A DNA stretch of 64,000 nucleotides from Sipunculus nudus (taxonomy: Eukaryota > Annelida > Sipuncula > Golfingiida > Sipunculidae). The notes below the pieces were generated by a model that ran no database searches, was not told the origin of the DNA, and saw only the letters and a list, made by a program, of their open reading frames with translations. The translations under genes were made by a program, and so were the position numbers. The stretch is taken from positions 25,086,214-25,150,213 of the forward strand of contig CM049320.1 in NCBI GenBank assembly GCA_026874595.1, in the 5' to 3' direction. Position 1 is the stretch's first letter; each line of letters starts with the position of its first letter. This document shows, one piece after another, positions 26,211 to 60,600 of this stretch.

Positions 26211-26236
26211 TATATATATATATATATAATATATAT

Positions 26237-26307
<71 letters not shown>
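26211..26307 (+). repeat. (TA)n microsatellite left of the palindrome
   Basis: Nearly uninterrupted TA dinucleotides with two one-base phase breaks. Abuts the palindrome at 26,308. Confidence 0.95.
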
Positions 26308-26310
<3 letters not shown>

Positions 26311-26473
26311 AGTGGTAAAGCCGTGTAAATATGTAGTTGAAATGTGGGTAAAAAATAACCACCTGACGAAGAAGCCTGTGCGCTCACACGAGCTTTCTAA
26401 GCGCACAGGCTTCTTTGTCAGGTGGTTATTTTTTACCCACATTTCAACTACATATTTACACGGCTTTACCACT

Positions 26474-26476
<3 letters not shown>
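26308..26476. repeat. Near-perfect palindrome: 77-base arms, 15-base centre
   Basis: The left arm (26,308-26,384, ACAAGTGGTAAAGCCGTG...) and right arm (26,400-26,476, ...CACGGCTTTACCACTTGT) are complementary with one mismatch. (TA)n tracts lie on both sides and extend the self-complementarity. No coding content. Confidence 0.95.
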
Positions 26477-26539
<63 letters not shown>

Positions 26540-26550
26540 AATATATAATA
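26477..26550 (+). repeat. (TA)n microsatellite right of the palindrome
   Basis: TA dinucleotides with minor interruptions near the right end. Confidence 0.9.
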
Positions 26551-26599
26551 TTACAAGAAATAATAAAAACTAATATCGCAATTAGTTGATTTAAGTCAC

Positions 26600-37125: not shown

Positions 37126-37805
37126 CTACTCGCATATCAGGGAGTATTTGCCGTTTTTTATCACTATATAACACAGTTTTGGAGGCTCCACCTTCCTGAG
37201 ATTTCTGTCCTCCTTGGTAGTAGTGTAGTACTCTCTGTTGTGTGGACCATAGGTAACCCGAGGTGTCTGTTCAGTAGTCTTAGTGACCAGGGTCGATGGT
37301 TCAGCAGTTTGTTCAGTTGTCTTGGTGGCCAGATTTGATACCTCAGCAGTATGTTCATTCGACTTGGTGGCCAGGACTGAAGGCTCAGCAGTCTGTTCAG
37401 TATTCTGGGTGGCCATGGCTGATGCCTCAGCAGGTTGTTCAGTAGACTGGGTGGCAAGGGCTGATGCCTCAGCAGTTTGTTCAGTAGACTGAGTTGCCTT
37501 GGCTGATGGCTCAGCAGGTTGTCCAATAGACTGAGTGGCCAGGGTTGACGCCTCAGCATTTGGATCAGTAGTCTGTTTGTCCATGGTTGATGGCTCAGTA
37601 GTTTGTTCAGTGGTTTTGTTAGCCAGGGTTGATGTCTGAGAAGTTTCTTCAGTCAGTTGGATGGCCAGGGTTGATGCCCCAGCAGTTTGTCCAGTAGTTT
37701 GGGTGACCTGCTTTGTTGCTTCAATTTTCGCTGCAGTATTTGTGGCCTCGGTTTTATCCTCTGAGTTTTTTCCTGGACTGTTGATGGTCTGGGTGGTTAC
37801 TGTCA
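37126..37805 (-). CDS. Terminal exon: Thr/Ser/Glu-rich repeat tail
   Basis: The acceptor is TTATTCAG|TGACAG; the TAG stop is at 37128-37126. The 227-residue tail is mostly imperfect 14-residue units of the form T-E-Q-T-A-E-A-S-x-L-A-T-x-S, encoded by 42-bp units. It is rich in Thr, Ser, Ala and Glu, as in mucin-like O-glycosylated stalks. After the repeats comes a basic segment (TTTKEDRNLRKVEPPK) ending in ICE. No transmembrane helix or GPI-type hydrophobic tail is seen. Copy number of the 42-bp unit may vary between individuals (inference from the tandem structure). Confidence 0.8.
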
Positions 37806-38605: not shown

Positions 38606-41600
38606 GCATATATGAGATTACCGAAAGCAGAATCGCTTAAATATCGATGATATTTTTTTTATTTTCACGTAGCTGTATCCTTTATGAGGAAAAATATCTG
38701 TCTAGAAAAGATATTATTTGTTAAGTGAATCATTATAAAAACAACTCAGCAGATATAAAAAGAACAAAAATTACCTGATGTTGGCTGCATTTCTTTTTTG
38801 CACACAAACAACATCTTCTCATTGCATTTGATCAAGAACCATTTATTCTCCTTGACCAAAAAGACTTTGCATTCACTCTCATCTACAATGTAATCGATTA
38901 AAAGGGAATTATAAATGTGTTCGGCATAATTAATTTTTTATTTGTACGTGGAATACCAAAGTTACCACACAAGACCGTTTATTTTTATTATATGAATATA
39001 AACGTTTTTACGGTGTGCGTTATCTGGATACTGTTACCCTTCGTGTGTTTGTGTGTTTCTGTGTGTGTTTTCATTTTTTCACAACATAACTCACGCAATC
39101 ATTTAAGAAATCTCCTGAAGTTTTCAGGGCACTTCATGAATGGGTCAATGAAGAATTGATTGATTTTTGGTGTGGATCCGGTACATAATCCGGATCAAGG
39201 AACGTTATCTAGGACTGTTTACTTATGCAAGAATGAACCTTGGAATATGGGCAAATAAGTGAATGGCATCCATTAGAATGCAGGATTCTAGTATCTTAAA
39301 TTGTATATTCTTTTACTAACTTCTGACCATTACAGATTTGTTAAATCCAATACTCTTCGGAAGGGACACTTTTAAACAGATCGCTCTCATACAGTACGAA
39401 CGACAACGATTTCCCTGTAGGCATTGTGACATCTAATAAACTTAAAGGTTGTGTTTTACAAAGATATAGGAAATTGCGCAAATTCTATTTTTTTTGCGTT
39501 CATGATGTTATGACAATAATCTACAGAACCTGTTTTTATTAAACAAACAGAAGCCTTGAATCCGTAGTTGCTGAAAGCGGCATATTCCGATATCTGGCGT
39601 CTATTAACTAAAGACAATCACTTGATGAATAACTAGCGTTTAGATGGCAATCCAGAAAACTGAAGAATAGGAAGAAAGCCTATGTAGATGCGGTGCTAAC
39701 TGTTCTTTTTTTTGTTGGTTATATGGACCAATTCTCTTTTCATGAAACAAGAGATGATGTATCGTTAAACAGAACACTCGAGTAAAACGTTTTCCTACAA
39801 TATAAAACACCAATCATGTAGACAATCTTCACACTATTAAACATCTGGTAGCTACTCTTTCAGAGACTTTGGCTCAGTGACTTTGATTCATCGACCCACT
39901 CTGGCGTCTATTTCAAGAACAGTGAACTGGTATGCATGTGTTCACTCGCCGTCTGAATACGAATACATGCATCACATAATTAACTGATAGGGTATAGTGA
40001 TTTTATGCGTTTGGTCAGATTCTCGATGCCCTCTTGCAAAAGTTTGGCCTGCAATTGGTACACAGACGTGCTCCAGGAGGTATTGATTTAACTGCCTTGT
40101 ACATTATTCATAAAATAGACGCCGGAGCCACTCGTTTGATAAAGGTCTCTCAAAGCGTGGCTGCCAGAGGCTTGATAAAATGAAGATGCTGTGCCAAAGG
40201 CTTACCAAGTTGGTCGACAGTTAGTCCAGTCCACGACCTCCGCCTGTCAGACAATACCGTGCTCTCAATCCATTCTTTATCAGCATCTGCAGAGACGTTC
40301 AGCAGGTGACTTTTGTAATTCATGCAATAGTTCTGTGCAACAGACCAATTGGCATGTCCTCCCAGATGATAACAGCTACCTTTGTTTTCTTTCCAGCCGT
40401 TTGGACAAGAATCTGGCGATGACAAAAAATTAACATGCACTGCCGGGTATGGGGTGAACTTGATTGTAATTTATTCTAATCAGCATCCGGTGTAAGTCAA
40501 AGATGAATGTGTAGGAAAAACCTGATCGGGCATTTTTCAAACAGTTAATAGGAACAGGGATTCCGTGTGTTATGACTACAAAACCTGTTTTATGTAAAAA
40601 AAAGACCATATCAAACACACACACACACGCACACCTCTATACCCGCACGACACCTGCTCAGAACGACGCAATAATCGTTTATTTGCCTTCAAGTGGTGGT
40701 TTCCGTTTTGTAATTCGCTCTGCATTTTATTTTAAAAAATCAGTAGCAAACGGATATTGACGGAGGGGGCAATAGCGGCCGGCAGTGGAGCGAAGCCGTT
40801 CATTAACAACACTTTACGCTGCGTTTGTGGGGGGGGGGGGATTCACAAGAGTACCGTCCTATGTGTTGCCTGTTTCGTTAAACAACGCACAGGGCGGAAC
40901 TTCCCTATGTGGGGAAAGTAAGGCCCCCTCGCCATTCTTAGGTGGCTGTAGCTCATATACTGCCCTATCTGTTAGTTTTATGCTAACATTCTTGTCCTTA
41001 CTTCTGACATGTTCGTTATTTAAGGGTTTGTATTGCATGGAATTAATCACAAATGGGAAGAATAACAGCAAATCAAATGAAAACATTTCAATTCTATGAA
41101 GAGAAGTCACAGTATTTCTATAACGAAACTGTCTTTTTATCAAATCCCATTTATAGTTCTGACGTTTTAGTGTCAGTAAAGGAAAAATTCATGTGCATCT
41201 AAAGTTGCCTATTAGATCCATATAAGAAGAACAAATAGCCAGATAGGCCGAACTTGTAAAAGAAAACAAACAATATATATCATTAAGATATAATTTCTAT
41301 AAATTCCTTAAAGGTATTTGATAATTATTGTACCCATTCGTAGATGGCGTTATCCCACCGTATTAATAATAAGCCAAAAGCATTGCTTAGAATGGGGATT
41401 TTATTTTTCACGAAAAAAGTATGATGAATTTAAATATGAAAGAAGTGGCAGCACTGGGATAGATTGCGGAAGAATAAACGTGCTGGTACTTTACCTGTTT
41501 CAGAAGCCTTTTTCTGACACAGGAACCAAAACGTAAGATTGCATTTCCTGAGGACCTGTGAATCATTCCCGAAATGCAGGACAGCGCACTTCTGTGTTCT

Positions 41601-43135
41601 TGGATGGTTTTCTTAAATAGCAGTATCATTGAATTAAAAGCGCACACTTGCTTGAATATTACATAATTATATTTTATGCAGAAAAAAACATAAAGGACAA
41701 GCAGTACGATGGATGTTGCTGCATGTTTGTGCATTCATGGGTGTTCTTCGACAGGATACGGCATATATTGTTGTAGAAACCGACTGTGAATTCGTGATAG
41801 CTTAATATAAGAATACTTAAAGTGAAAACCTTGGTCGGTGTCTTAGTGAATGATATTTTTCAATTTCTGTCTCTAGAAAGTGCAGACAATTGATTCACAT
41901 GTAACATAGAGACCAAATACCAATTAAAATCGTTTAATACATATTGCATTTTCGTCGACATGTAAATAAACAAATCCAGTGTTTACGGCTTACCAAAGAC
42001 AGAGCCTTCTATCCATATGTGTCTCTTTAAACGCAGCAATTCGGTCTTAATCCACTTGTTCTCTTCCGTTGAATTACCCATAATAAGCGTACCATTGAAA
42101 TTTTTGCAATGCGTCTGTGCTTCAATCCAAGTGGCCCATCCGACCACATGATAACAAGTACCGGTATTAGTACGAATTTTCCAGCCAACAGGACATCTTT
42201 CTGTCAATTGAAAAAAAATGTAAGGTTCACTACCTGAATTACTTCAAGCTGAAATGTTTAAGCTCGAACATTTCAAGGGTTAACATTTCGCCAACAATAC
42301 GTTGCATGACGAAAGTGATCCGGCTTTGATAAGGTAATCTATAATGATTTAAAATAATGACAATATCAAAATGAGAAACGCAGTCTTTTTTTTGTAGATC
42401 ATAATTAGACTAGTCGGATTTCGACAGTTAATGCCCGGTGCAAACGTAGTGTCAGAATTAATACACAGTGGCAGGTCAATTGATTTTGTTACAAAGACAT
42501 ATTGCTCAGGAGAAAATATTGGGCCGATCCATTATTCGAACCCATATCAGTATAACCCCAACCGCTTCGCTAGAAAAGCAAGCTTTCATGTCACCCCGTA
42601 ACACACCCCCTCTTAAGAGAGTCCTGTTATCAGAACAAGATTAACTTTACAAGGAGTGAATTAGGTGGCGGTAATTGACTATTTACTTCAAACCACCATT
42701 CACTAGGTATGCCGTCTTTTTGACGAGCCCCCTTTTGTTACGAAAACAAATCGCTAAGGGGACAATATTGGGCGCACATGACCGGCGTTCCAAACGCTTC
42801 ACTAGAAAAGCAAGCTTTTATGTCACCCCGTAACACACCCCCCCTTAAGAGAGACTACTGTTATCAGAACAAGATTCACTTTCCCAGGAGTCACACTTCT
42901 TGTTAATAAGGTGGCGGTAATTGACTAATTACTTCAAACCACCATTCACTAGGTATGCCGTCTTTTTGACGAGCCCCCATTTTTTTTTACGAAGACAAAT
43001 CGCTAAGGGTACAATATTGGGCCGATCCATGTCGGCGTCGCACATGTCCGGCGTTCCAAACGCTTCTCTAGAAAAGCAAGCTTCACTAGCGAGACAGTTC
43101 GATCCGCTTTTATGTCACCCCATAACAATTCGCAT

Positions 43136-43167
<32 letters not shown>

Positions 43168-46100
43168 CCCATTCGATTGTCTGATTAGAAAAATATATTT
43201 GAAATTGTTACTGAATAGCAAGGATTTGTGTGGGAGGGCATATTCAACAAGTCACAATTGCAAATAAAAGAGCAACTAGAAATCATATGCAAACAGATAT
43301 CCTTGATGTTGTCCCATCTACGAGTGCGATAATGATATGTTGTTTTAGTGTCATAGTTATTATGTTTCCAAAGTTTCAAAATCCATAGAAATGTTTCCAT
43401 TGGCATTCCCATTGGCATCCAAAGATGGACATCGAGATGCCTTTAAAGAGGACATATATCGCGCAGATCGGTCAAACTTGCTAAAAAACATACCAAATAA
43501 AAAAATATATATTTTCTGTCAATTCCTTACTCTTTTATAGAGTTATCAAACAGTTAGCATGCAGACAATTAAGCAAGATGGTACTCTACCGTTTGCATTT
43601 CCGTTGTAAGTATTACGTTTTTTACACACGGACACCTTCGTTGCATTACAATGGTCGAGAAATCGTGTCCCTTTCTTGAAGAGCATGGCAATGCATTTTC
43701 CTTCAACTGCAGGTGGTTGTTTAATATTATATAATTGAATTAAACATGTATATGTTCTTTAAACATTACATCTTTACATTTTAAGCAAGAAACAAAAAGG
43801 GTACATCTCAGAAACATTACAAGTTTGTATAAGAGACACCCTGTTGCAATAAGGTCACAGGGAAAATGTATGTTATTTATGCTAAAGTCTGTGTCAGTAG
43901 CATACATGGTACATTCTTTTAAAACTCAAGAAGACAGAAAAACCTAAATAGCTTGGTAATATTTAATTTAAAGTGGAAACATTGGTTAAAATCTTAGAAA
44001 CTTGAATTTATTTTCTTGTTGTCATCACGTGTAGATATCGATGGTATCTGTCGCATCCGATTGAAATATCATTCAGATTCATTCAGTTGGAAGTGTACGG
44101 GAATCACCATAAATATTACCAAATCCAGTGTGATACAGCTTACCTGAAGCAGAGCCATCGATCCATGCTTTGGTTATGTTTTTTGGCAAACTGGCCTTAA
44201 CCAAATGCCTCTCCGTGGTTGAGGAAACATTGAGCAACTGGCTGTCCTGTCGACTGCATTCCTTCTCTGCTTCAGATCTATTGACCGGTTGTCCAAGGTA
44301 ATAACAGTACCATTCAAGATATCTCCAGCCCTCAGGACATACATCTGGCAATGTAAAACAGTGTTAAGTCCACAGCCTGCCTGTTATAGTGGCCATATCC
44401 GATACGTGAAGCGCAGTATTTTCTTTGCAGTAATCCGCATCAGTTTTGTGTACTGTAGTCCACTTCACAGGCAAGCGGTAAATCTCTACGAGATTTACTT
44501 TATTCTTGATTACAGTTAATCGGTTACCAAAAGGGCTGTATCAATATAGCAGTATATCGATACAAATCGATACAACACATTGATAGGTTTATCAATACGC
44601 TTTATTCATTGAATAGATGAGAAACTATGACTTCTTAAAATGTAGCTACAAGCATAACCTAAGTCATAACTAGTTATAAAGTTAAGGTTACTTCCTTTAT
44701 GTTATCATGCTGCATACTCTGAACCACATGTTCGGCAACAGCTGGAACAATTGATCAAAAGCCTAGGGGAAATCAAATGTTAGTTTACAAAAGGAAATGT
44801 GATTTAGGGGATTCATATTTTATAAACATAAGAAAACTGTAATTACAACTGTGTAATTAGATGACCTATATCAGAATTATAAATTTAAAGACTATAACAA
44901 GGACTATAAAATAAGATTGAAATTTTAAAACCGCTTAGTCTATTTATTTTATGAGATTAAGGAATAAAGAAATTTGATTATCATTAACATAACTAGTGGC
45001 CCATGGGCCATGACGCTTAGCTGAATTCAAGGAATCCTTAAAAATGTCTGGTTTACGAGAAAACTCTCCAATACGGATTGACATGCCAAATTTCAGACCA
45101 ATACCTTGAACCACTCGTAAGACATGAGCAATTTTCACCCAAAGCACATGTATTGATGGGCGCCACAGGAAAACAATTGCAGATAGCGCCACCGGTCTTG
45201 GGAACAAGATGGAGGAGTCTAAGATATATGGACACGCACAATTTCAGGCCAATACAGCAAATCACTCCTGAGAAAAAAGCATTAATTTATTATACAAAAA
45301 ATGAAGGTAAGTGGTGCCACCTGTCTGGCTTACGAGAAAACTCTCCAAGACGAAAGGACACGCCAAATATCAGACCAATACCTTGAACCACCATTGAGAT
45401 ATGTGCAATTTTCACCCAAACCACATGTATTGATAAATGCCACAGGAAAACTATTGCAAATGGCACGACCAGTCTTAAGTACAAGGTGGAGGAGTTCAAG
45501 ATCTATGGGTATGCACCATTCCCGACCAATACGGCAAATCACTCCTGAGAAAAGGCATTTATTTAATCTACAAAACTGGGAAAGTAGGTGGCACCACCAG
45601 TCTGGTTTACGAGAAAACTTTTCAAGATGGATAGACTTGCAAAATTGCAGACCAATATCTTGAACCATTCCTGAAATATGAGCAATTTTCACAAAAAAAA
45701 ACAAATATACAGATGGACTGCCACGCGAAAACGACTGTAGACAGTGCCACCAGTCTCATGTAGGTGTTGAGGATCTATGAACATGCAGAATTTCAACTCA
45801 ATACAGTGAAGAAACCCTAAGACGAACAGATGGAAAATGCACAGATGGACACTAGTGGTGGGCCGATCATCGAGTTTATCGAAAGTCAGTCGGTTTGATG
45901 TCACTTTCAAGCGCTCGATTTCCAAAGGCAACTATCGATTACATCATAATAATGATTGTTTTCTTTCCAAAATGCCTTTTAGTTATAGACAAAAATGATT
46001 CTTCAATTTTTTTACCACATTCCGCGCTTCATATAATCAGTCTGTGTTCCCAAATAACTACCGTATGTAACTGAGTATGACAAAGAAGATGCGAGAATGG

Positions 46101-49100
46101 AGGACTTATTAAACTTATTATCTGTGAACTCGCAGGGAGCTGCAGAATTGGCGGAGAGTTTTCTAACGAGATGTACATTGCAAAATATGGGCGGGAAGGC
46201 GTGAAATTAATCTATTCAACCGATGCCATGTGCCACTGTTTAGGCCGTCCCTAAAAAAAAATTCTTTGTTGGGGCTATGATCCTTAAAATTAGTCTGATT
46301 GTGTCAAAATACGTGGAAGATCGTGCGCGAGAGGAGAATACCTGCCGGGGAAACGTAGGAACAGTTTCACAGATAATTACATATTTATTTGATATATGCA
46401 TATATTTGTCTGAATCGATTAATAATCGATCATCAGTCGGTTTGCTCAAACCGATGATCGATTATGAAAAAGGAACCGACTCCCACCACTAAAGGACACT
46501 ACGCAAAAAGGATTGTAGGTGGTGCCACCAGTCAATTATGAGTTGGAGAGATCCATGATCTATGGACATGTAAACTTTCAGCCCAATACATGGAGCCACT
46601 CCTGAGATATCGGCTGTTATCTAAAATACACCCACATTCGTATCACACAGAAAGGTTTGCTGGTGGTGCCACCTGTCTTTGTTAGGCAAAACAACACAGT
46701 TGAAAGAAAAACTATGCTGGATTTCAGGAAGATTGGTCCAAGGGTCTCTGAGGAGTTCTCTGGAAACCAACGAAGAGTTTTTGTAAAAAAAAATTGTAAA
46801 AATTAGAAAAATAAAGGCCACCACCAGTTTGCAGAACTGATGAAACACTCCATGACCAATATTCATGCAAAGAATCATGGTGTTCATCGCAGAAGTTATT
46901 CATATACTCTAGCTTTGTATCAATTTTTTATTTATTCTGAGGGGTACTTACGAGCTCCATAGCTCAGAGGATATGGGTACACCTAATTTCAGATTTCCAT
47001 AGAGACCTTCATGGACCTCCTTTGATGTTAAGTTAGAAGATTCCAGGTCCAGTGGTTAGGATTTGTGCCATATTAACAGATGACAGCTTCTTTGAAGGTA
47101 TCAAGAATAGAGAAAAAAATCGTAAAATTAAAAAGAAAGACAGGTGGCGCCACCAGGTGGTGCAAAGAATCATGGTGATCAAGGCAGTAGTTATTCAGAT
47201 ACTTGAGCTTTTGTATCAAATTTTTAATTATTCTGAGGGGTACTTACAAGCCCCATAGCTCCGTGGATAGAGTAACAGAAACCCAATTTCATGTTTTCAC
47301 AGAGACTTTTCATGGACCTCCCTGGTTGTCAAGTGAGAAAATTCCAGGTCCAGCAGTTACGATATGTGCCCTGTAAACAGATGACAGCTTCTTTGAAGTT
47401 ATCAGAAATAGAGTAAAATTTAAAAAAATAGAAAAAATACACGTGGCGCCACCAGTTTGCAGGAACTGATGGAACACTCAATGATCAATAATCATGCAAA
47501 AAATCAGGGTGATCAAGGCAGCAGTTATTCAGGTACTGAAGTTTTGTATCAATTTTTTTTTATTCTTGGGGGTATTTTCAGACCCATAGCTCGGGGAATA
47601 TGGGTAACTGAGAACTAATTTCAGGTTTCCAAGGAGATTTTTTAGGACCTCCCTGGATGTCAAGTTAGAAGATTCCAGGTCCAGAAGTTACGATTTGTGC
47701 CCTGTTAACGGACGGACGGCTGGACGGCCAAACGGCCAGACGGCCGGACAAACGGAAGACGGACGAAGAGTGATCGCTATAGCTCAGATGACTTTCAGTC
47801 AGTTGAGTTAAATATTTCGTATCACATGCCTTATTAACAGAGCACTTTTCACGCCACTTTCATGCGGCTCACTTTTCTGAGAGTAAAATATAAGTCAGCC
47901 CAAAATGGTGGCTTTTTATTTGTTTACGAAAACCTAACCCATAGGTAAATATCAGTGCGTACAGGCGAATCCGTTTATTTTTGCATGCATAAGGTAAGTT
48001 GTATTCAAAGGTGCCCATTCACCTTCCCTGTTGAAAAAGAATTCATGTGAAAACTGGCTTCCTCTTTGCATAAATTAATGATTTTAGCTTGTTTTGGTTA
48101 TGCAACGTTCTTATTACGTCGTTGTGAAGGATGAATGAACGTGTTTGTTAACACAGCTTTTTTGACAAAAGGGAAAACATGTAACCTTAGGTGGTAAGTT
48201 CATATTTTCGGAGGTAGATCAGTCACTATTTTCAAAGCTCTGGCTTATCTGACTTGCCGCCAGATGCCCTTGTTGAATTTATTTGATTATTTTGGCGGCT
48301 CACTCCCCATATATCATAAACACATTTCCCGGCCTTTCTTTGTGTAAGCTCTGAGGGATTACCTTTATAAAGCTCAGATAGGTGATTAGGCTACCTCAAG
48401 GATAATTCAGTACGACTGAGTGAGGATAAAGGTAGAGCATGATATGTTAATATTAAGATATCAGGATTTATATGCACGGGGTAAGGTATTATCCAGCGGT
48501 CATAAAATGTTATCAGGATATCAGATTTCTTCAGTTCTAGCGAGATTTCACCATTATGCTATTGAGGAACCGGCAGGGTTCGAACCAAGGACCTTAAGCA
48601 CCGAGGTCTAACGCCTTTACCACCAGGTTACGTCCTACCCCTGCATGAGGTAAGTTTAGCTACCATATGACCTAAACTTTCAAGCGAATTATAACGTCTT
48701 GCGACACGGTAAACTGGACAGCAATCAGTGCGATAGCAAATTTAGGGTTTTTAATACACCGATTTAGGGTTTTGTAAAGCTAACTACACCAGGACACAAA
48801 TCTTACTACTTCGAGAATAAAATAAACCGGATTAGTGTAAACTGATGTAGAAGCTAGCCCAGTCGGACACGGCCTATACTTTGTTCAATAAAGCTGTGTC
48901 CACCTGTTTTTTTTTCAAAAAAACTTAATGTTTAATTTTTGCAACAAAAAAAGATATTGCCTTTTATTGGAATCAAGAATTTTACAATAAATCTCTAGTC
49001 TATGTATCACAACGTTTTTATTCTTTACAATGATTTGACAGACTAAATGTATCCTTGATAGGGGAGCCATCTTTGATTTAGCTGGTTATATTTTTTAGAG

Positions 49101-49794
49101 TGTTTACATTATCCAATCAGCAGCTGTTAGCTGAGGTTGGTTTTGCATGTGTGATGACCTTCATCGGCATAAGAATTTTTTTTTTACATTTTTTTTTCTT
49201 TTATAAGTAACCTATCATGAAAGTGTTTTTACATTCCATTTTGATTCGAGAACATCACTGTTTGTTCAAATACATGTAGAATATTTGAGGGTATTTCTCT
49301 TTAAATTGAAATAAAAGTGGTTTAATGGTCAAAGATCACCTTGCTTTTTAAGGGTATACATTATTTTCTAGAATCAATTGTAGGGAAAACTGGGAGGTTC
49401 CTTGTATTAATAATTCATACGTAAGATTTTTTTTTTCTAAAAGCGAATGCGTATAATTAATATATGGAAGTGCCCAATTGACTCATTTTGCTCTTGCTGT
49501 TTGCACAGTTAACATTACCTATTTTTTTATTTCGCTCCTGTATGGCTTAAATTACCTTCACATTCAATACTTGGTACTAAGTGAAACTCAGCCAAACATT
49601 AAAATCCTAAAAATCCACAAAAGGCGGTCCCATTATGGCAAGTCATCTCGAGGGTAGCTAATAAAACATGATAAATCGTCTAACATGATTCTTACTCTAT
49701 TTGCAGTTGATTTTGATTCTGTGAACTTACCAGCATTGGAGTATGACAGCCAGAAGGCCATCATGGTAGTAGTGAAGAGTTTCCAAGAGAACAT
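37126..49794 (-). CDS. Secreted protein with three compact C-type-lectin-like domains and a Thr/Ser-rich repeat tail (566 aa)
   Basis: CDS join on the minus strand: 49794-49731, 44344-44144, 43706-43590, 42200-41994, 41611-41495, 40412-40206, 38882-38775, 37805-37126 (1,701 nt with stop). All seven introns are phase 1. Order: a 21-residue signal peptide; three C-type-lectin-like domains (CTLDs), each of two exons; a 227-residue tail. Each CTLD shows CPxGW, a second cysteine (CYYLG, CYHVV, CYHLG), a third cysteine in the first helix, a W-I/T-x-G strand, then C ... C ... C-K/Q-K. Six cysteines match the long-form CTLD disulfide set. The EPN/QPD and WND motifs and the long loop are missing, so classical calcium-dependent sugar binding is unlikely. 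Several NxS/T glycosylation sequons are present. No transmembrane segment follows, so the product is probably secreted. Exon 1 is 5.4 kb away and is joined on phase and signal-peptide logic only. Confidence 0.75.
37260..37690 (-). repeat. 42-bp coding minisatellite in the tail exon
   Basis: Roughly ten imperfect copies. On the plus strand the unit reads tgatGCCTCAGCAGTTTGTTC... followed by GTNGNCTNGGTGGCCAGG. The same unit is found in the degraded copy at 51.5 kb. Confidence 0.85.
38557..38596 (+). repeat. (GA)n microsatellite in the last intron of the CTLD gene
   Basis: GA tract; the paralogous block has TATA(GA)n at 52,441-52,513. Confidence 0.95.
38775..38882 (-). CDS. CTLD 3, second-half exon
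   Basis: The acceptor is CATTGTAG|ATGAGAG and the donor CATCAG|GTAATT. It encodes DESECKVFLV, NKWFLIKCNEKMLFVCKK and EMQPTS. The spacing C ... WxxxxC ... FVCK is the usual C-terminal end of a CTLD. It is 108 nt, phase 1 at both ends. Confidence 0.83.
40206..40412 (-). CDS. CTLD 3, first-half exon
   Basis: The acceptor is ATCGCCAG|ATTCTTG and the donor CTTG|GTAAGCC. It encodes DSCPNGWKENKGSCYHLGG, then ANWSVAQNYC, HLLNVSADADKEWI and the strand SWTGLTVDQLG. It is 207 nt, phase 1 to phase 1, with sequons NWS and NVS. Confidence 0.85.
41495..41611 (-). CDS. CTLD 2, second-half exon
   Basis: It encodes QKCAVLHFGNDS, VLRKCNLTFWFLCQKK and ASETG, the final cysteines of the domain. The acceptor TATTTAAG|AAAACC was chosen because it is the one that keeps phase 1 without a stop and gives 117 nt, equal to the CTLD 1 exon. 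The nearer AG at ACACAG is out of frame. The donor is AACAG|GTAAAG. Confidence 0.72.
41994..42200 (-). CDS. CTLD 2, first-half exon
   Basis: The acceptor is TTGACAG|AAAGATG and the donor TTTG|GTAAGCC. It encodes ERCPVGWKIRTNTGTCYHVV, then WATWIEAQTHC, LIMGNSTEENKWI and the strand HIWIEGSVFG. It is 207 nt, the same length as the equivalent exon of CTLD 3. Confidence 0.85.
42520..43120 (+). repeat. 232-266-bp tandem repeat, about 2.5 units
   Basis: TAGAAAAGCAAGCTT recurs at 42,571, 42,803 and 43,069. GGTGGCGGTAATTGACTA then TTACTTCAAACCACCATTCA recurs twice. It lies in the intron between CTLD 1 and CTLD 2, just 5' of the segmental duplication boundary. Confidence 0.85.
43590..43706 (-). CDS. 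CTLD 1, second-half exon
   Basis: The acceptor is ACCTGCAG|TTGAAG and the donor AACG|GTAGAG. It encodes VEGKCIAMLF ... FLDHCNATKVSVCKKR, the last three cysteines of the domain. It is 117 nt, phase 1 to phase 1, the same length as the equivalent exon of CTLD 2. Confidence 0.82.
44144..44344 (-). CDS. CTLD 1, first-half exon
   Basis: The acceptor is ATTGCCAG|ATGTATG and the donor TTCAG|GTAAGC. It encodes DVCPEGWRYLEWYCYYLG, then helix residues with the third cysteine (KECSRQ), LLNVSS, and the strand KAWIDGSASG. It is 201 nt, phase 1 to phase 1. Glycosylation sequons NRS, NVS and NIT are visible. Confidence 0.85.
45040..45850 (+). repeat. 277-bp tandem array, about three units, in intron 1
   Basis: TTTACGAGAAAACTCTCCAA-type starts lie at 45,051, 45,328 and 45,604. 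Each is followed by CCAATACCTTGAACCA, GAGCAATTTTCACCCAAA and GGAGGAGT(C/T)TAAGAT. Confidence 0.85.
45853..46491. mobile_element. hAT-like element (639 bp) with an 8-bp target duplication
   Basis: The ends TAGTGGTGGG and CCCACCACTA are perfect 10-bp inverted repeats. The flanks ATGGACAC (45,845-45,852) and AAGGACAC (46,492-46,499) match at 7 of 8. Subterminal CCGATCATCGA/TCGATCATC phrases are also inverted. No transposase frame is visible. Confidence 0.8.
46500..47775 (+). repeat. 295-334-bp tandem array in intron 1
   Basis: AATCATGGTGATCAAGGCAG-type phrases lie at 46,873, 47,168 and 47,502, with GGTGGCGCCACCAG and GATTCCAGGTCCAG in each unit. It ends in a GGACGGCTGGACGGCCAAAC-type G/C-rich tail. 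Confidence 0.85.
48565..48636 (-). tRNA. tRNA-like relic (Ser/Leu-type arms), probably a SINE head
   Basis: The minus strand has an A-box-like TAACCTGGTGGTAAAGG (48,630-48,614), a GACCT/AGGTC anticodon-arm-like stem, and a B box GGTTCGAACCC. The acceptor stem does not pair and the anticodon loop is too long, so it is not a working tRNA. It lies in intron 1 of the CTLD gene. Confidence 0.45.
49731..49794 (-). CDS. Signal-peptide exon of the CTLD gene
   Basis: The ATG at 49794-49792 opens a 21-residue signal sequence beginning MFSWKLFTTTMMAFW and ending SYSNA, followed by a strong GCTG|GTAAGT donor in phase 1. A short basic start, a hydrophobic core and small residues before the predicted cut fit a signal peptide. 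The phase matches the first CTLD exon, and the reading joins as NA|DVCPEGW. No competing signal exon is seen between here and 44.3 kb. An mRNA would be needed to prove the splice. Confidence 0.65.
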
Positions 49795-50920: not shown

Positions 50921-51519
50921 AAAGAATAAAATATTATATGCAACGGCGGATTCTTGATTAAGTGAGGGATTAACTTAACCCCTGAAGATGTAATGCCCCT
51001 AAAGTAGTTAACATCTCCCGGAAGGTATATGAGAGTCTAAAAATATGAAACCACTGAAAATATGATAACAATTAATTACTCGCAGAACGGGGTACACTGG
51101 CCCGGATATATTATATATGACGTAATGGAAGAGATAAAGTTTGGATCATCGGTACATACATATAATATTCAGTCTCCAAACATCTCATTCATGGTTGCTC
51201 GACCTGTTATGAACGGCAGAAAAAGTGCTTATCGACTTGTTACAAGGAGTTTGTTTCATTTTTTGTTGATCTCCGCTACATAATAAAGCAATGACAATTA
51301 GAAAGAACATTTGCATAGAAAAATGTTTATTGTTAAATTGTAAAAAAAAAATATTTGTTAAATATATACACCATGCAAGCTTTATAAAATATTTAATTCA
51401 TTATATTTGAATATAAATATAATCTACATTGCGGTGCTAACATCTGTTCTGCCAAATTTTACACCTTTATTTTCATATCTCTCGGCTAATAACATGCAGG
51501 TAACACGAATCGGATCGCC

Positions 51520-51960
51520 ATTAGGTTCAGCAGTATGGCTGGCCAGGGTTGATGCCTCAGCAGTTTGTTCAGTAGTCTGGCTGGCCAGGGTTGATGCCTC
51601 AGCAGTTTGTTCAGTATCCTGGATGGCCATGGTTGATGCCTCAGCAGTTTGTTCAGTAGTCTTGGTGGCAAGGATTGATGCCTCAACAGTTTGTTTAGTT
51701 GTCTGGGTGGCCAGGATTGATCCCTCAGCAGTTTGTTAAGTATCCTGGATGGCCATGGTTGATGCCTCAGCAGTTTGTTTAGTAGTCAGGGAGGCCATGG
51801 TTGATGCCTCAGCAGTTTGTTCAGTAGTCTTGGTGGCCAGGATTAATGCCTAAACAGTTTGTTCAGTATCCTGGGTGGACAGGGTTGATGCCTCAGCAGT
51901 TTGTTCAGTTATCTGGGTGGCCAGGGTTGATGCCTTAGCATTTTGTTAAGTAGTCTTAGT
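51520..51960 (-). pseudogene. Pseudogene tail: 42-bp repeats with nonsense codons
   Basis: About ten 42-bp units encoding TEQTAEASTLASQT-like residues. Minus-strand stops replace sense codons at 51948-51946 (TAA for GAA), 51852-51850 (TAG for GAG) and 51738-51736 (TAA for GAA). Confidence 0.85.
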
Positions 51961-52442
51961 TTTCAGGGTTCCTTCAGCATGTGGGACAGCATGTGGACAC
52001 CCTTTCGACTGAGATGCCGACTGTATGGAGGTCATAAATGGAATATACAAAAAAGGAGGAGAAATATAGGACTGTCAAAAATCGCTCACATTAGAGAGGT
52101 GCCAACACTATACGGAGATGCTCTTCTTGATAGATTCTACTGTAGTATTTTTTTATATATGGTTGGAACCCGGATTGAAAAGGCACAGTGACAAAAAATT
52201 GTAAATTAAAGTCATCAAGTGTAAAATACTAGACGTCCCATGTTATCCCCGATGCGAATTGTTTTCTCTTTCAAAACGGAATTTAATTCCTTTGGTGTTA
52301 TTTATTAATTCTGCACTACAGGTTTCCTTATATATAAAAAATTTGTCCACAATTTTCTGTCTTGATTAGAATTAGCGTTTGTAAAAGTTTTATTTCTAAT
52401 GAAGCATCCGATAATAATAATCATAATACTCATAAAACATAT

Positions 52443-52513
<71 letters not shown>

Positions 52514-52745
52514 TAATGGCATATATGACTATTTTTAAAGGCAGAATCGCATACATAATGAAAATATTTGTTTTATTTGTTTTCAGAACGTAGTTCTGTA
52601 GATTATCAGGAATGGAATCTTTTTGGAAGAAAAATAAGTTAATAATGTTCGTTGATGTACAAATATTTTCGTAAATTTGATTTGTGTGATTTTGTATCAA
52701 TAAATTCAGCATCAATTGAAAAAAAAACCCCTGAAGTGGTTTGTA

Positions 52746-52843
52746 TCATTTTTTTTTTTTGCACACGAACTGCATGATCTCCGTGCAGTGGTTCACGTAC
52801 AATCTACCATTCTTTGCCCTAAAGGCGTTGCATTCACACTCAT
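52746..52843 (-). pseudogene. Pseudogene CTLD 3 second-half exon
   Basis: The acceptor TTTATAG|ATGAGTG is kept. It encodes DECECNAFRAKNGRLY, HCTEIMQFVCKKKK, then TGA. The run of 12 A after FVC suggests slippage that removed the donor and introduced a stop. Confidence 0.75.
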
Positions 52844-52893
52844 CTATAAAGTAATCGTATAGCAGTGAATTTTACATGTTTTCGGCATAATCA

Positions 52894-52901
52894 ATCTTTC
52901 T

Positions 52902-52957
<56 letters not shown>
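52894..52957 (+). repeat. (TA)n(TG)n microsatellite
   Basis: A TA tract to about 52,938, then TG dinucleotides. Confidence 0.95.
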
Positions 52958-52958
<1 letters not shown>

Positions 52959-54475
52959 ATAAGTGTAAATAGAAAAAAAACGATCTTCCACTGTCAATGA
53001 ATGATAGAATATAAACTTTTTTTACAGTGTTTGTTTTCTGGATATTCCCAATCATGTATTTGTGTGTTTGTTTGTAAGTTTGTTTACAATATAACTCCTA
53101 CACTCACATAAGGAATCTCATGAAATTTTAAGGGCATTTTGGGAATGAGTAAATAAAAAATCGATAAGATTTTGGTGTGGATCCGGCACAATAACCTTTT
53201 CCAGAAACATCTTTTTTTAATTTCCACAAATTTACAATCACTTATGCATGAATAACCTTGGAGTATGGGAAGAATAAATGATTGGCAGAGGCTTGTTTCT
53301 TAGACTGAATATTATTTAACTAAGTCTTGACGACTAGAGATGTAATAAATCCTATACTCGTCTGATTAAAACACGTCAATTTCCCAAATTAAAAACACAA
53401 CTGATATTTTAGTTCTCTCTAGGTATTCGAAGATCTTATAAACTAAAAGGGTTGGGTTTCAAAAGAAGAGGAAATTGGTGAGCGATGAAATTATTTAGGC
53501 TTTCATCGTACTGTGACAGCAAAATGCAAGGTATGTTTTTATTAAACACAAAGAAGCCTGATATATGTTATTCCTTAAAGCGGCATATTCCGAAATTTAA
53601 CATCTTTAAACTAAAGATAATCCCTTGACCATTTCATAAACATAGACCAGACCCCGAGGTAACCCGATTCTTTTGTTTATATACTCGCGCTTATAAGATA
53701 TTTGTGCCGCCGAACAAAACCAAACACATTCAACGAGGACATCTAGCGCTTAGTCAGATGAACCCAGAGTTTGGCAAAAGGCTTTTATATGTGCAGCTTG
53801 TGTACTTCCGCACATATAATACCAACCCCCTTCAGTTACAAGTTTAATTATTGTTTGTAAACATGGGCGTATGTACCGTATCAGCTTGTACAAAAAAAGG
53901 GCTAAACTTCCAACACAGAGGCATTATAAGAATCGTTCTAGGTAAGAATAACCTCAGCTCGTTATTAGCTACACAGAGTAAGCCAAAAATCACACAGAAA
54001 TGACGGGAAAAAGGGACTTGAATAGCTAGCTTTAAGAAGGCCATCCAGCACACTGAAGTATGAGAAGAAAGCCTAAGTAGATGCAATGCTATTTTTTTCC
54101 CTTTTTTTAATCATATGGACTAATTACCTTTTCATGAAACAAAAGATGATTTAGCAGTTTTCTATGGACCATTTCATTCTTACAAGCCTCAAGCAGATAC
54201 CCTACAGAGACTTTGGGTCAGAGACTTTGTTTCATCGCGCCTATTTCAGGAATAATGAACTAGCCTGCATGTGTTCACTCGCCGTCTGAACAAGTATTCA
54301 TGCTTAATAAATAGGGGCTGATTTAAGTGATTGTATGTGTTTGGTCAGCTTCTTAACCGTACAATAGCAAACATTTGGCATTAAATAGTACACAGGAGTT
54401 ATTTGATTGATTCAACTGCCTTGATAATTTTTCATGAAATAGACACTAGAGTGACTCGTTTAATCAAGGTCTCAG

Positions 54476-54540
54476 ATGACATATAGGCATGTCCTTTCAT
54501 ATGATAACAGCTGCCGTTGTTATCTTACCAGCCAGTTACA
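54476..54540 (-). pseudogene. Pseudogene CTLD 3 first-half fragment
   Basis: The minus strand reads VTGW-stop-DNNGSCYHMKGHAY, against PNGWKENKGSCYHLGGHAN in the intact gene. The in-frame TAA and loss of the downstream helix make it non-functional. Confidence 0.75.
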
Positions 54541-55892
54541 AAAGTAATAGCCTGTACTGCTGTATTGAGATGAACTTGGGTATGTTATTTATTGTAGTCA
54601 TGACAAAATGTAAACCGAGCAAAACGTCCTTAAGTAATAATTATAAACATTCTTTCTTTAAAAAAAAATGATTATACCAGAAGGAGAAGCGAAATGTTTC
54701 TGTAGGACCACACAAGGCAGCTCTGATAAATAGCCATGCGCTAAACACACGTGCAAACCTGCGTGATACCTGCTGAGACATTAGCGTTTTGAAATACGCC
54801 CTGCGTTATTTTATTTTTATATTTTCCGGAAAACTGACATGGGGTGGGGGATGGGTGCCGGCGGCTGGCTCTGGTGCACGATAGCGGCCGGTGAATAATA
54901 GCCCTTTACAGTTTGTTTTTGTTTGATGGTTGGGAGGCCAGTGTCCGTCCTATATGGCACCTGTTTTCGTTTAACGAGCACATTGCGAGAACCTTTGTCT
55001 TGGGGCTATTAACGGCCCTCTCTGAATGTTGTGTAGGTTAAATACTGCACTTTTTACCGAGTTTTAGGCCAACATTCTTTTACTCATATCTGACATGTTT
55101 GTTAAATTTAGGGATTGTATTGAACGCAATCAATCGCTGACGATTAAAGAATAACAGAAAATCAGTGATCGCTGTATTACTTTAAACCAAACTGATCCTG
55201 TTATCTTAAATCCGATTTATAGTTATCACCTTCGAGTGTCAGCAAAGGATATTTCCATATGCATCTTATATCTGTTTGAGATGCACCTACAGAACAACAT
55301 CACAAAAATAAACAAAACATACCATATATATATCATTAAACTAAAGTGTTTTTCATTTCCTCAAAGGTAATTTATATTTTCTGAACTCAATCATACATGG
55401 AGCCATCCCACAGTACTGAGAATAAGCCAAAGGCATTGTGGACACCGTAGATTAATGCGAAACTGTATAAAAACTTGCATGATGAAGTATGAATAGAGTT
55501 TAAAAGAAAAATATTTAAAAAAAACTATAAAAGTATAAATTAATGTTAAAACCCACAACTCTCAAATAAATCTAACTATATAGGACACTTCTACACAAGG
55601 TTCAGATATGTTTGCGGTTTTACTGTAAGTTACTAGAGTCAACTGTATTTTATCTTTCCACTCAGTATATCATATATTGTCGAATTGACGAGATAAAATG
55701 TTAAAAATGTGAAAATTGTTGAAGCAATCACATCTCTGTTTTAATTATACATATAAAAAACCTTAATCACCCTCTCAAAGATGCTAATTTGCACCTAAAA
55801 AGTATGGGCAAGTATGTACACATCGTATTTTCAAAAAAGTATGAACATTCATCGAGAAAGAACCTTATAAAAATACAAATGTTGAGTACTTT

Positions 55893-55990
55893 ACATGATT
55901 CATCAGCCTTTTTTGGCACAAGAACCAATTCTCAGAGAAGCTTTTATTTGAGAACGCCACTGTAATATTCCAGATATTTAGGGTTCTGTA
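55893..55990 (-). pseudogene. Pseudogene CTLD 2 second-half fragment
   Basis: The minus strand reads NWFLCQKRLMNHV before a GTAAAG donor-like site. This matches TFWFLCQKKASET plus GTAAAG in the intact gene. Upstream residues have diverged. Confidence 0.65.
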
Positions 55991-56448
55991 TCTTCCCTGA
56001 TGGTGGCCTTAATAATGAACCTGAATTAATCAAATAAAAAATTATTATACGAACAGCACTGCATTGGTAGCTGCTTTAATATTGTATCATTTTTTAAAAT
56101 AAAAACGCATAGAATCTTGAAAAATTACATCATTGTATTTTTTGCAGGATATCAAAAACATGTCAATGACAGGAAGTGCGCTTGATGTTGTTTAATGTTT
56201 GAGCATTCATAGGTAACCGTCAAATACACACGTCATTAATTGCTGATGAAGACCGACACTGAATCCTTGCTAGCTTAATATAGGCATTATAGTGAAAACC
56301 TTGGTCAATGTCTTATTAAATGTTATTATTTTATTTCTGCTTTAGATCATGCAGAAAATTCACATGAATTCACAAGATACGTTCAATATAGATTGCATTT
56401 TCTTTGTCGCCATATGAACAAACAAATCCAGTGTAATACGGCTTACTA

Positions 56449-56628
56449 GGGCCAGGATCTTCTATCCATAGAATGCCTTTTATGTGTAGCAATCCGGTCC
56501 AAACCGACTCGTTCTCTTCCACTGAATAACCCAAAATCGGTTAACTATGGAGATCGCTGCAAAGCGTCTGTAATTCTGACTCAGTAGCCCATCCCACGCC
56601 GATTTTCCCAGCCACCCAGGCATTTATT
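56449..56628 (-). pseudogene. Pseudogene CTLD 2 first-half fragment
   Basis: Alignable at the nucleotide level to 41994-42200 (GTAAGC donor side, WATE-like segment, GW start) but with about 27 nt missing across the second cysteine, plus other changes. Confidence 0.65.
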
Positions 56629-56858
56629 TGTCGATTGGAAAACTTTAAGATGTACTTCCCAAGTAACACCAAGCTTAAATGTTTAAGATTAAAGTTTTTG
56701 GCATTCAACGATAAGTTGTCATTGCCTTATCTTTGATCGTTTAATATTATGATAATGTCAGAATGAGAAACAAGTCTTTTCTTGGTAGATCATACCCGAA
56801 TTTGGTCGGAATTTGACAGTAAATGACCAGTGCAAATGTACTGAAAGAACTTACACAC

Positions 56859-56869
56859 AGTTATATATA

Positions 56870-56927: not shown

Positions 56928-57369
56928 TACGGTCGTTTATTTCGAGAAAATACAATTCACATTGTGGAAGTTTGTATCATCTGGAACACACAAATTGGTT
57001 TGCTGCCGAGAGCTTTTGAAATATCACAGTAGTCACTTGGTTAATGTTTCTACAGACGCGGGAAAATACTGGCTTAGGAACAATGAATTTTCGCACAGAT
57101 GAAGCTCATTGACTTGTAGCACTGCCGGCTGACTTGGTAAGCCTTTTGTATAACATACTATCATACTATCAAACTGACCTCTTGCATTTACGGTTTCAGA
57201 TATTTGGTTCGACGAGCCACTGTATCGTAATTTTCATCATTTATGAACAAGGTAAAAGAATCAATCAAATAATTGCTGGAGCACGCCTGGGACATTTGTA
57301 GGCCAACATTGTGCGGGAGAGGCATCGATAATATGAAAAAACGCATAAACCTTTGTGAAGCTGTTCCGT

Positions 57370-58150
57370 ATCCGGAGCCTGTGTTCTTGTTCAGACGGCG
57401 AGTGAACACATGCAAGGTTGTTCATTATTCATGAAATACACGCGAGAGAAGCTCAATGAATCAAATTTTCTGACTCTAAGCCTCTGGAGGCGTAGCAGAA
57501 AGAGATTAAATAGTTTGAAGATAGTTTTTAGGAAACTGCTAAATAATATTCTGTTTCATGAATAAAGGATGGGTCCACACGATAAAAAGGAGAAAAATTT
57601 AATAGCATCTAGCCAACGTATTTTAGTTTTTAGGGTCTTCTTAAGGTAGCTATTAAAATCATTTATCTGTAAAATTTATGTGATTTCTGGTTTTTCTCCC
57701 GACCGTTATAAAGCTAAATCCTGCTAATTATGTAGCTAATTCCTGCTAAGAAAGGTTCTATAATGCATCTCTGTCGGATGTATGACTTTATTTGTCAACG
57801 AGATGATACGTTAAATACGCGTATGTTGACAAAAAGAAAATAAAATGTAACTAAGTGGTTGTTAGCATATTTGTTTAACAGCTACACAAGTTTGCTAAAA
57901 CTCTCTCGTCTGACTGAATGCCATATGTCCTTATTGATTGTGTTAGGGGTAATTTGGTGGCCCTTCAGATTTATGAACGACATGGAACAAACAAAACTCA
58001 TAATCTTTGTACTGCGGCATCTGCGTTTTTTGCTGTATATTTTTTTATAAAAAGATAAAGGGAATAGCTTTAATTAGTAGACGTCAGATATCGGAACATG
58101 TCGCTTTAAACATCTACAGATTCCAGGATTCCGAATGTTTAACAAGAACA
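57370..58150 (-). repeat. Inverted partial copy of the duplicated intron
   Basis: CTTGTTCAGACGGCGAGTGA then ACACATGCA at 57,390 is the exact inverse of the sequence at 54,268-54,296. Further weaker inverse matches run on (TTCATGAATAAAGGATGG against the 54.1 kb ATGAAACAAAAGATG segment). Confidence 0.6.
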
Positions 58151-58159
58151 TGTTCTATA

Positions 58160-58733
58160 AGTTGCTGACACTGCACAATGAAGGCCAAAATAATATCTAG
58201 AATATTAACCACAACTTCCTATTCCTTTGCAAAACAAAACCTTTTTGTTAAATTTATATTACTATAGCTACAGACAACTAAGGAATCGTGTTGTGTTTTT
58301 ATCATTTTGATTTGTTACCCTTTTAAAACTCTTCTTTTAAGAGGAAATATTGAATTGAACAAGGGAATAAATTCTAATGAATGCAAGACCCCCCCCCCAA
58401 TCTATTCGGCATATTCAAAAGTTCATTCATGGATTAGTTATTTGTGAATATTTGTGAATTAACTTGATGACGTCCCTGGGTTTTTATGCCGTATCTACAC
58501 CAAAGTCTAATTGATACTTTATTGAATTTGCTAAAAAAATCATGAGATTCATTTAAAGGTCGCGTGAGTTGTGAACAAACACATACAAACACATGAAATG
58601 GAATGCACGTATATCTTACTGGTGATGGTAACAATATCCAGATAATTCACAATGTAAAAAGTTTATATTTTATCATAAACTCACCCTGAGAGGTCAGAGT
58701 TAACGATCTTGTTTGGTAACTTTGATGTTGCAC

Positions 58734-58786
<53 letters not shown>

Positions 58787-60600
58787 AGAAAAAGAAAATT
58801 ATGCCAAACACAAGTATAAGACATACATTGTCAATCAGAGTTAATGCAAAGCCATTTTGGCAAAGTCGAAGAGATGGTTCTTGACCTGATGCAATGAGAC
58901 GATACGGTTCGTGTGTAGAAAAAGGATCCAAGCGACCTCGGGTATTTTTTTAAATTACGGCTGATTTGTTTTATAGAATGAGACAGTTTCGGAAATCATA
59001 TTCACGAAAATGTGTCCACATCTACCAGCAATAAAACTTCCTTATTATACTAACATGAAGATATATTTCCTTATAATTCACAGAACTAGGTTAAAATAAA
59101 TAAAATATCTTCATTTTCTATGGAAATCCCGGTCGTTAATGTTCATATATGCCATTATCTCTCTGTACGTATATATATATATATTCGTATTGTGATTATC
59201 ATTATTACTATTATCGTCATAATCATTGGACGTTTCACTAGAATTTATACAAGACAATTTTAATCAAAGCAAAATGTTTTGAGTAATATTAAGATATTAG
59301 GAAGTCTCCTACATAGAATTAATAAATATTACCCAGGCAATTAAGTCTCTTTAAAGAGTTAATTTTATACGTTATTTATCAGGCCACACATAATATTTCA
59401 CACTTGATGATAAAAATTTACATTTTCTTGCATTGTTTTTATTTCAATGCGTGTTCCAACATTATAAGAATACCATACAATATGGAATAATACCATAATA
59501 AATACTGTAGAATCTCTCCTAATGGACATCTCCATCGAGTGGAAACCTCTATTTATGTGAGTTATTTTGACTGTCCTGTTTATTTCACATAACTATTATT
59601 TATGACGTGTTAACTACTTCCATATAAGGAGGACATCTATAAATGGGACATTTTTTTTCTTTTTTTTATAAACACTGTTTTGATTTTTTTTTTTAATTTT
59701 TAATTTTTTATGAACAAGCAAACCACACAGACCATCTGCAGTCATAGACAGGTCCAGGCCAGGAAAAAACTGCTAATTTTCCAGTCAAGGTTTTCTCAGT
59801 AGATTCTGATAGTTAAAATCAGCTCTGGGACCATCTTGAATTTTGCCTTAAATTCAATATGGACGCCAAAATTCCAATGTGGCCGCCAAAATAACTACAA
59901 TGTTATCTTGAAGAAACCTATAAGGTGAAATGCAGATTTTTTCCCACTAATTTGTGATGATAATAGCCAATGAACATGACCCAATTAGTTGGTTGCCACA
60001 GCAGAACGCCACGCTTTTTGGGAAATAGCAATATCTCTTGTCCTGGCAGAGTTCTGACTATAAATTTGGTATCTAGCTCTAGTTTTTCAGGGATGGGGAA
60101 CCCAAACACGCCATCAGATCCGATATTAGGTCAGTAGGTCATGAGGAAAATTCAAGATGACCGCCAATGGCAATGTCAGTAATCTACTCTTTGGTGTTTC
60201 CCATATTCTACAGGAGTTACAAAAGTAATTTTAGGGCCGAGACATAGATTTTCAGGGTCAAGGAATACGTTCCGTTACTTTCAGCCACACTATCTGCAAC
60301 TGGTACCATGAATCAAAGATGTCTGCCTTATCCAGCCTCGCTTAGATGAGTGGTAAAGGATGTAGAGTCAGAGCCATAATACTCTGCACTCAGACAGCAG
60401 ATAAATGTTTAGTAAAAGAATCTCTTTACAGAAACCAATCTCAGGTCTATTTTCAGATTATATGAATCCACTCCACAGTGAAGACAATGAGGAGCTCCTG
60501 ACCTAGATTCAGTGAATCTGTAGTTCAATGTTGACAAAGACATTGGAGTGTGTTTTATCTTTGTGACTACCAGATTATTCCAATATGGCACTGACACCAT
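58160..60600. other. No gene seen
   Basis: AT-rich sequence with a (TA)n tract at 58,736-58,785. CAATATGGACGCCAAAATTC then CAATGTGGCCGCC at 59,857 resembles AATATGGCCGCC at 35,828, probably a dispersed repeat. Nothing coding supported. Confidence 0.4.
58736..58785 (+). repeat. (TA)n microsatellite
   Basis: Perfect TA tract of about 50 bases. Confidence 0.95.

Follow-up and report, generated by a model that had tools for sequence, protein, structure and literature searches.

The 64,000-bp stretch of Sipunculus nudus DNA analyzed here (assembly GCA_026874595.1, contig CM049320.1, positions 25,086,214 to 25,150,213; hereafter "the window," with coordinates counted from its first base) carries on its minus strand, at 49794-37126, a gene of tandem C-type lectin-like domains (CTLDs), which we refer to as G1. 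Eight exons join into a closed frame of 566 codons, and all the internal junctions are in phase 1 with GT-AG ends. In order, the predicted product comprises a signal peptide, three CTLDs (D1, D2, and D3), each encoded by one pair of exons (A and B), and a threonine (Thr)-rich exon that also encodes a short two-cysteine tail. None of the three CTLDs of G1 has the long loop, usually regarded as the functional part of a C-type lectin domain.

Loop-less domains in the window gene

A first-pass annotation of the window had claimed three six-cysteine CTLD-like domains without the calcium/sugar loop between 38775 and 44344. These coordinates match the gene model to the base: exon D1A begins at 44344 and exon D3B ends at 38775. 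Each of the three domains has six cysteines (Cys), and all score above the curated cut-off of 22.6 bits for Pfam Lectin_C (PF00059), with 24.7, 27.7, and 32.6 bits for D1, D2, and D3. In each case the best match is confined to the first half of the profile (positions 4-45, 4-45, and 3-50 of 107); in D3 there is also a second, weaker stretch. From the tryptophan (Trp) of the WIGL-type strand to the next cysteine, that of beta-3, there are 11, 15, and 13 residues in D1, D2, and D3, which agrees with the short gap originally described. For comparison, eight of nine canonical CTLDs of the same genome have a Trp-to-Cys spacing of 36-40 residues; these nine were collected by a regular expression requiring a P motif in a search of loci L001-L028, and are not a census. 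In the ninth the spacing is 22, as a cysteine lies inside the loop, and the homologous cysteine is at 40. Reading of the three G1 domain translations by eye confirmed that EPN, QPD, and WND are absent. The phase-1 junction falls 7, 7, and 9 residues after the Trp in D1 to D3, so that, as first noted, the splice junction lies at the missing loop in every domain. When the G1 domains are aligned to CTLDs of the mannose receptor family both halves align, and ~27 residues of the known proteins are skipped between them (for example, PLA2R residues 425 to 454 against query residues 68 to 70).

We located exon 1 by scanning for a start codon, a hydrophobic stretch, and a phase-1 donor. The chosen exon is not the most hydrophobic of 26 candidates, and its donor ranks in the top two. 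Homologous exons that share its GTAAGT donor precede two neighboring paralogues, G2 (L013 8399-8464) and G3 (L016 4204-4269), and confirm the choice; a weak match also occurs in L031 (E-value 0.026). When the C-terminal tail was used as a query, seven further sites were found, none of them off this chromosome. Those in G2 and G3 have E < 1e-15, a third has 6e-6, and the remaining four are weak (0.18-0.55). The tails of G1, G2, and G3 are 71-79% identical. By eye, no further hydrophobic stretch was seen in the G1 product beyond the signal peptide.

Table 1. Features of the G1 gene and of degraded copies in the window
Feature	Position	Strand	Basis
Exon 1: start codon and signal peptide, 21 residues + one base, phase 1	49731..49794	-	homologous exons in paralogues
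Domain 1 exon A: first CTLD half through WIGL-type strand, 201 nt, phase 1-1	44144..44344	-	
Domain 1 intra-domain intron, 437 nt, without loop-type cassette	43707..44143	-	cassette scan
Domain 1 exon B: beta-3 Cys to last Cys, 117 nt, phase 1-1	43590..43706	-	
Domain 2 exon A, 207 nt, phase 1-1	41994..42200	-	
Domain 2 intra-domain intron, 382 nt, without loop-type cassette	41612..41993	-	cassette scan
Domain 2 exon B, 117 nt, phase 1-1	41495..41611	-	
Domain 3 exon A, 207 nt, phase 1-1	40206..40412	-	
Domain 3 intra-domain intron, 1323 nt, without loop-type cassette	38883..40205	-	cassette scan
Domain 3 exon B, 108 nt, phase 1-1	38775..38882	-	
Last exon: Thr-rich region (22% Thr) and two-cysteine C-terminal tail; TAG stop at 37126-37128	37126..37805	-	
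Tandem repeat of 42 nt (14 residues), 10.4 copies, within last exon	37268..37705	-	
Degraded copy of a G1-type gene (last exon, D3B, D3A, and D2 pieces, with stops)	51519..56861, approximate	-	DNA matches
Second degraded copy, inverted (D3A and D3B pieces, with stops)	56975..59466, approximate	+	DNA matches

Both degraded copies sit between G1 and its neighbor G2. The first intron of G1 includes tandem repeats with periods of 277 and 301 bases, at 45045-45692 and 46866-47455. Elsewhere in the window, a 321-base stretch (26231-26551) matches itself as an inverted repeat at 94%. Some 10.8 kb ahead of the window start there is a further, separate CTLD exon (L054 2669-2932) of the canonical type, in which, in contrast to G1, QPD and WND are present.

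A compact family in two clusters

Searching the 1.43-Gb genome that holds the window with exon A of D3 yielded at least 90 matches at E-values up to 1. The best 23 are all on the same chromosome and form two groups, one in or adjoining the window and the other ~3.4 Mb further on (28.58-28.87 Mb). Exon-A matches of >40 bits number 31, of which 28 fall in the two clusters and three are outside relatives. G2 (L013-L015) is a neighboring three-domain paralogue with all eight exons recognizable, and G3 (L016/L029) is a third gene of the family with a stop in one exon (D1A). The two stretches of the far cluster that we read through (L030 and L031) encode two-domain genes with a Thr-rich exon and a similar tail.

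Exons A and B were paired after dropping exon-A matches of <40 bits, including the stop-broken D1A pieces of G3, and exon-B matches of <20 bits. Of the 28 exon-A matches in the clusters, 23 have an exon B within 2.6 kb and five do not under this rule (L016 9745, L029 1821, L029 3346, L034, and L044). Beyond the 2.6-kb limit, exon B positions are found at L029 364 for L016 9745, and at L029 6210 for L029 1821 and 3346. The A-B pairs with both splice sites set, from G1, the tandem paralogue, and the far cluster, make up a set of 22 domains (L038 was excluded, as no acceptor was found).

The loop is absent from all 22 domains, with a Trp-to-Cys spacing of 11-15 residues. The junction follows the Trp by 7-9 residues and precedes the beta-3 Cys by four residues in 20 domains and by six and eight in the others. 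Eighteen domains have six cysteines and four have seven. As it recurs in all 22, drawn from two clusters, the loop-less arrangement is beyond chance. Judged from the translations, the connection between beta-2 and beta-3 is very short in all 22, as expected of compact CTLDs. We aligned 16 of the domains, leaving out near-copies, and scanned the same 16 against profiles. The alignment has eight invariant columns, six of them Cys, and the two N-terminal cysteines of the long form (C3 and C14, CPxGW...C) are invariant in all 16. Lectin_C matches every one of the 16 at E-values up to 1 (best, 1.9e-10).

Between G1 and G2, the ratio of nonsynonymous to synonymous substitution rates (dN/dS) is 0.63 for D1, 0.71 for D2, and 0.53 for D3, values not significantly <1 (Z = -1.1 to -1.7). 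In the far cluster the ratios scatter around 1, without significance except in one pair that has no synonymous change. The family is evolving fast, by selection or by relaxed constraint.

Lectin_C matches of another kind are also common in this genome. Of the 151 listed, over 50 belong to open frames of ~330-440 codons that are spread over contigs C1-C17. At one locus (L053, C5:66536500-66541500; frames 1-705, 1581-2726, and 3159-4481), two CTLD frames occur beside a frame with CARD matches. The CTLD/CARD frames resemble a mobile or viral element, present in many copies, with immune-type domains as its cargo.

Origin of the compact domain

Two loop-bearing relatives outside the clusters have an intron at about the corresponding position. 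In the C16 relative (L046, L049), exon A ends nine residues after the Trp at the same phase-1 intron, and exon 2 opens with the loop, including W-x-W and NW, with 27 residues from junction to Cys. In the C10 relative (L048), eight residues separate the Trp from the phase-1 junction, and exon 2 retains W-x-W, with 14 residues to the Cys; the resulting Trp-to-Cys spacing of 22 residues represents an intermediate loop length. CTLD exons A that seemingly end just after WIGL were seen at four C10 loci (L048, L050, L051, and L052), and for L048 the donor and the second exon with its half-length loop were established. An intron downstream of WIGL has been described for a fish antifreeze gene, and CTLD genes of groups VII and XII are said to have introns at the same places as that gene, in the account given in PMC514892. 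From the junction-to-Cys distances (27 residues in the C16 relative vs four in 20 of the 22 compact domains), we infer that ~23 codons were lost at the start of exon B. In the line leading to the compact family the intron is probably older than the loop loss, and the loop was probably once the 5′ end of exon 2. Either a shift of the 3′ splice site downstream or a deletion would remove such a loop in one step with the frame kept.

To place the loss we built a midpoint-rooted tree of 23 compact domains (the 22 and D3 of G3) and eight loop-bearing ones (those of C16 and C10, and six of L001-L008, without L003 and L005). All the compact domains fall on one side of a branch with support of 94/96, just under the levels (95 and 80) that the program marks with a star. 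The label "compact" requires a single change on this tree, compared with a mean of 7.2 in shuffles. Same-numbered domains of G1 and G2 group together (D1, 99/97; D2, 100/97; D3, 96/93), indicating that the domain triplication is older than the gene duplication. With the loop absent from 22 of 22 domains, one change on the tree, and this pairing of G1 and G2 domains, the suggestion in the first-pass annotation that the loop was lost once before triplication is supported as history.

We therefore favor the reading that G1 encodes a secreted protein of three compact CTLDs, whose loop was lost once as codons at an exon edge before the domain was triplicated and the genes spread in tandem, with a probability of roughly 0.7. 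In the ancestral CTLD, the WIGL strand would have been followed closely by a phase-1 intron, and the long loop would have been encoded by the opening ~23 codons of the next exon. A single loss of these codons, by the downstream splice-site shift or by a deletion at the exon start, would have left a short beta-2/beta-3 turn and all six cysteines. The loop-less domain would then have been triplicated, followed by tandem spread of the genes.

Several observations weigh against this reading. The gene models of G1 and its family are drawn from genomic DNA alone. The third outside relative (L047, on C6) has no intron after WIGL and its exon runs on into the loop, as do the exons of L017-L022, and in the best Lectin_C matches of the genome, L001-L008 among them, the whole domain is in one exon. 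Since the post-WIGL intron is not general in this genome, its ancestry for the compact family is something that we infer. Long branches are flagged in the tree, including both loop-bearing relatives that have the intron (C16 and C10). The dN/dS values fit relaxed constraint as well as diversification. Finally, a low-confidence structure model, made of D3 exon A only (aligned with exons A of D1 and D2), had a mean predicted local distance difference test (pLDDT) score of 53.5 and a predicted template modeling (pTM) score of 0.40.

The other option raised in the first-pass annotation was a loop exon skipped or hidden in each intra-domain intron, to be sought as a cryptic phase-1 exon. Such an exon would be included in all transcripts or in a part of them. 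The A-B junctions of G1, all in phase 1, would accommodate a phase 1-1 cassette, and DNA-level similarity between the D1 and D2 introns persists in patches, one of which is open in a frame. The 22 A-B introns were scanned for GT-AG cassettes of 30-240 nt that keep the frame, contain no stop, and stay 40 nt or more away from both intron ends. Loop motifs (W-x-W, W..P[ND], or [EQ]P[ND]) occur in none of the 114 cassettes, with linked exon pairs and non-GT/GC donors lying outside the scan; Trp of any kind occurs in 15, and four of the 22 introns have no in-frame GT-AG cassette at all. A scan of 45-180 nt on all three window introns found 13, 6, and 15 cassettes, none with a Trp, and at 30-240 nt the D3 intron has one short Trp-bearing cassette, without a loop motif. 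The patch shared by the introns (~43990-43940 in D1, 41860-41790 in D2, and 39810-39745 in D3) was considered as an exon and rejected, because its best frame differs between the D1/D2 and D2/D3 comparisons and because the D1 and D2 introns align at the DNA level in general. In global DNA alignment these two introns agree at 68% of aligned positions, compared with 60-63% in exons, and their alignments are only slightly above those of shuffled sequence (z = 0.6-2.9), which gives them little weight either way. Both of the original options would fit a separate loop exon, and in the C16 relative the loop is instead the 5′ end of the second exon. The hidden exon was thus not borne out, and we regard it as very improbable. 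Several independent losses in different branches of the family have somewhat more in their favor, given that the C10 relative, with its 22 residues, indicates that loops do shrink in this genome and that the branch parting compact from loop-bearing domains is below the star level. However, exon B starts at the same distance from the Cys in 20 of the 22 domains and one change accounts for the label on the tree, so repeated loss is improbable.

A further alternative is that the genes are decaying and that loop loss is part of their loss of function. The window itself holds two degraded copies, G3 has its stop in D1A, L038 in the far cluster is without a usable acceptor, L032 reads a stop soon after the last Cys, and dN/dS is around 1 in that cluster. 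These are set against a G1 that is open over eight exons, six cysteines that are invariant over the 16 aligned domains, G1-G2 ratios that are below 1, though not significantly so, and the level of identity among the three C-terminal tails. On balance we think general decay unlikely, though it is the alternative that we take most seriously. Hardly credible, by comparison, is that the domains are Link (PTR) domains, the known compact CTLDs of animals. They have the same short beta-2/beta-3 connection as described for Link domains in PMC6468738, but neither the three window domains nor the 16 family domains match a Pfam Link-domain profile at E-values up to 1, Lectin_C matches all of them, and the six cysteines are in canonical CTLD order.

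Given the signal peptide, the lack of a further hydrophobic stretch, the Thr-rich stalk, and the cysteine-bearing tail, the single-loss reading most likely makes the G1 product a secreted recognition protein, multivalent and mucin-tailed, that works through the CTLD core. The stalk, probably O-glycosylated, would space and present the domains. By the description in PMC7618208, the long loop of canonical CTLDs houses both the sugar site and calcium sites 1-3. Calcium-dependent sugar binding by the compact domains is therefore unlikely, as they have neither the loop nor WND, and calcium-independent binding of protein or other ligands through the remaining surface is most likely. With a core that is retained, a loop that is gone, and loop-bearing relatives that share its intron, the family offers a natural experiment on core-only binding. 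The same contrast bears on how a loop can go at an exon edge without a break in frame.

Comparison with known CTLDs

The term "compact CTLD" reportedly stems from papers by Zelensky and Gready. As defined in PMC6468738, it covers CTLDs that lack the long loop between beta-2 and beta-3 or have a very short one or a substitute in its place, with Link domains, intimin, and invasin as members. By that definition, and on their translated sequences, the domains of the present family are compact CTLDs. They share the very short beta-2/beta-3 connection that the same source gives for Link/PTR domains (CD44, lecticans) and for the C-terminal domains of intimin and invasin. Unlike these, the family is a plain relative of Lectin_C with six cysteines in canonical order, and it occurs in animal genes with a Thr-rich tail; by profile, the predicted domains are not Link domains.

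The CPxGW start, the WIGL-type strand, and the six cysteines are shared with canonical long-form CTLDs (mannose receptor family, DC-SIGN, and NK receptors), and the best profile match to these, a multi-CTLD chain, has an E-value of 9.2e-57. What differs is that the ~27 residues holding the calcium sites and EPN/QPD are missing from the compact family, as is WND. Calcium-binding residues are also lacking in group V CTLDs and in CBCP/Frem1, and CBCP is described in PMC514892 with a short long-loop region like that of group V. In those proteins, however, the loop is short but present, whereas the compact exon B starts 4-8 residues before the beta-3 Cys. The herpesvirus UL45 family (PF05473) shows a weak resemblance: 9 of the 16 compact domains match it at E-values up to 1 (best, 4.5e-5), and D3 aligns from 2-101 to profile positions 75-173 without a loop-sized net gap, at 16.6 bits where the cut-off is 27.

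We found no paper on loop-less, non-Link CTLDs of animals in a search judged on titles and abstracts, with the subscription literature largely outside it. Compact CTLDs as such are already known; the animal, six-cysteine, tandemly expanded kind would be new. Compact CTLDs may have arisen here independently for a third time, in an animal and inside the six-cysteine long form, and we see the chances of this as about even. In that case, one-step removal of the first ~23 codons of an exon would have given rise to a tandemly expanding, fast-changing family of secreted, mucin-tailed proteins that recognize ligands via the CTLD core alone.

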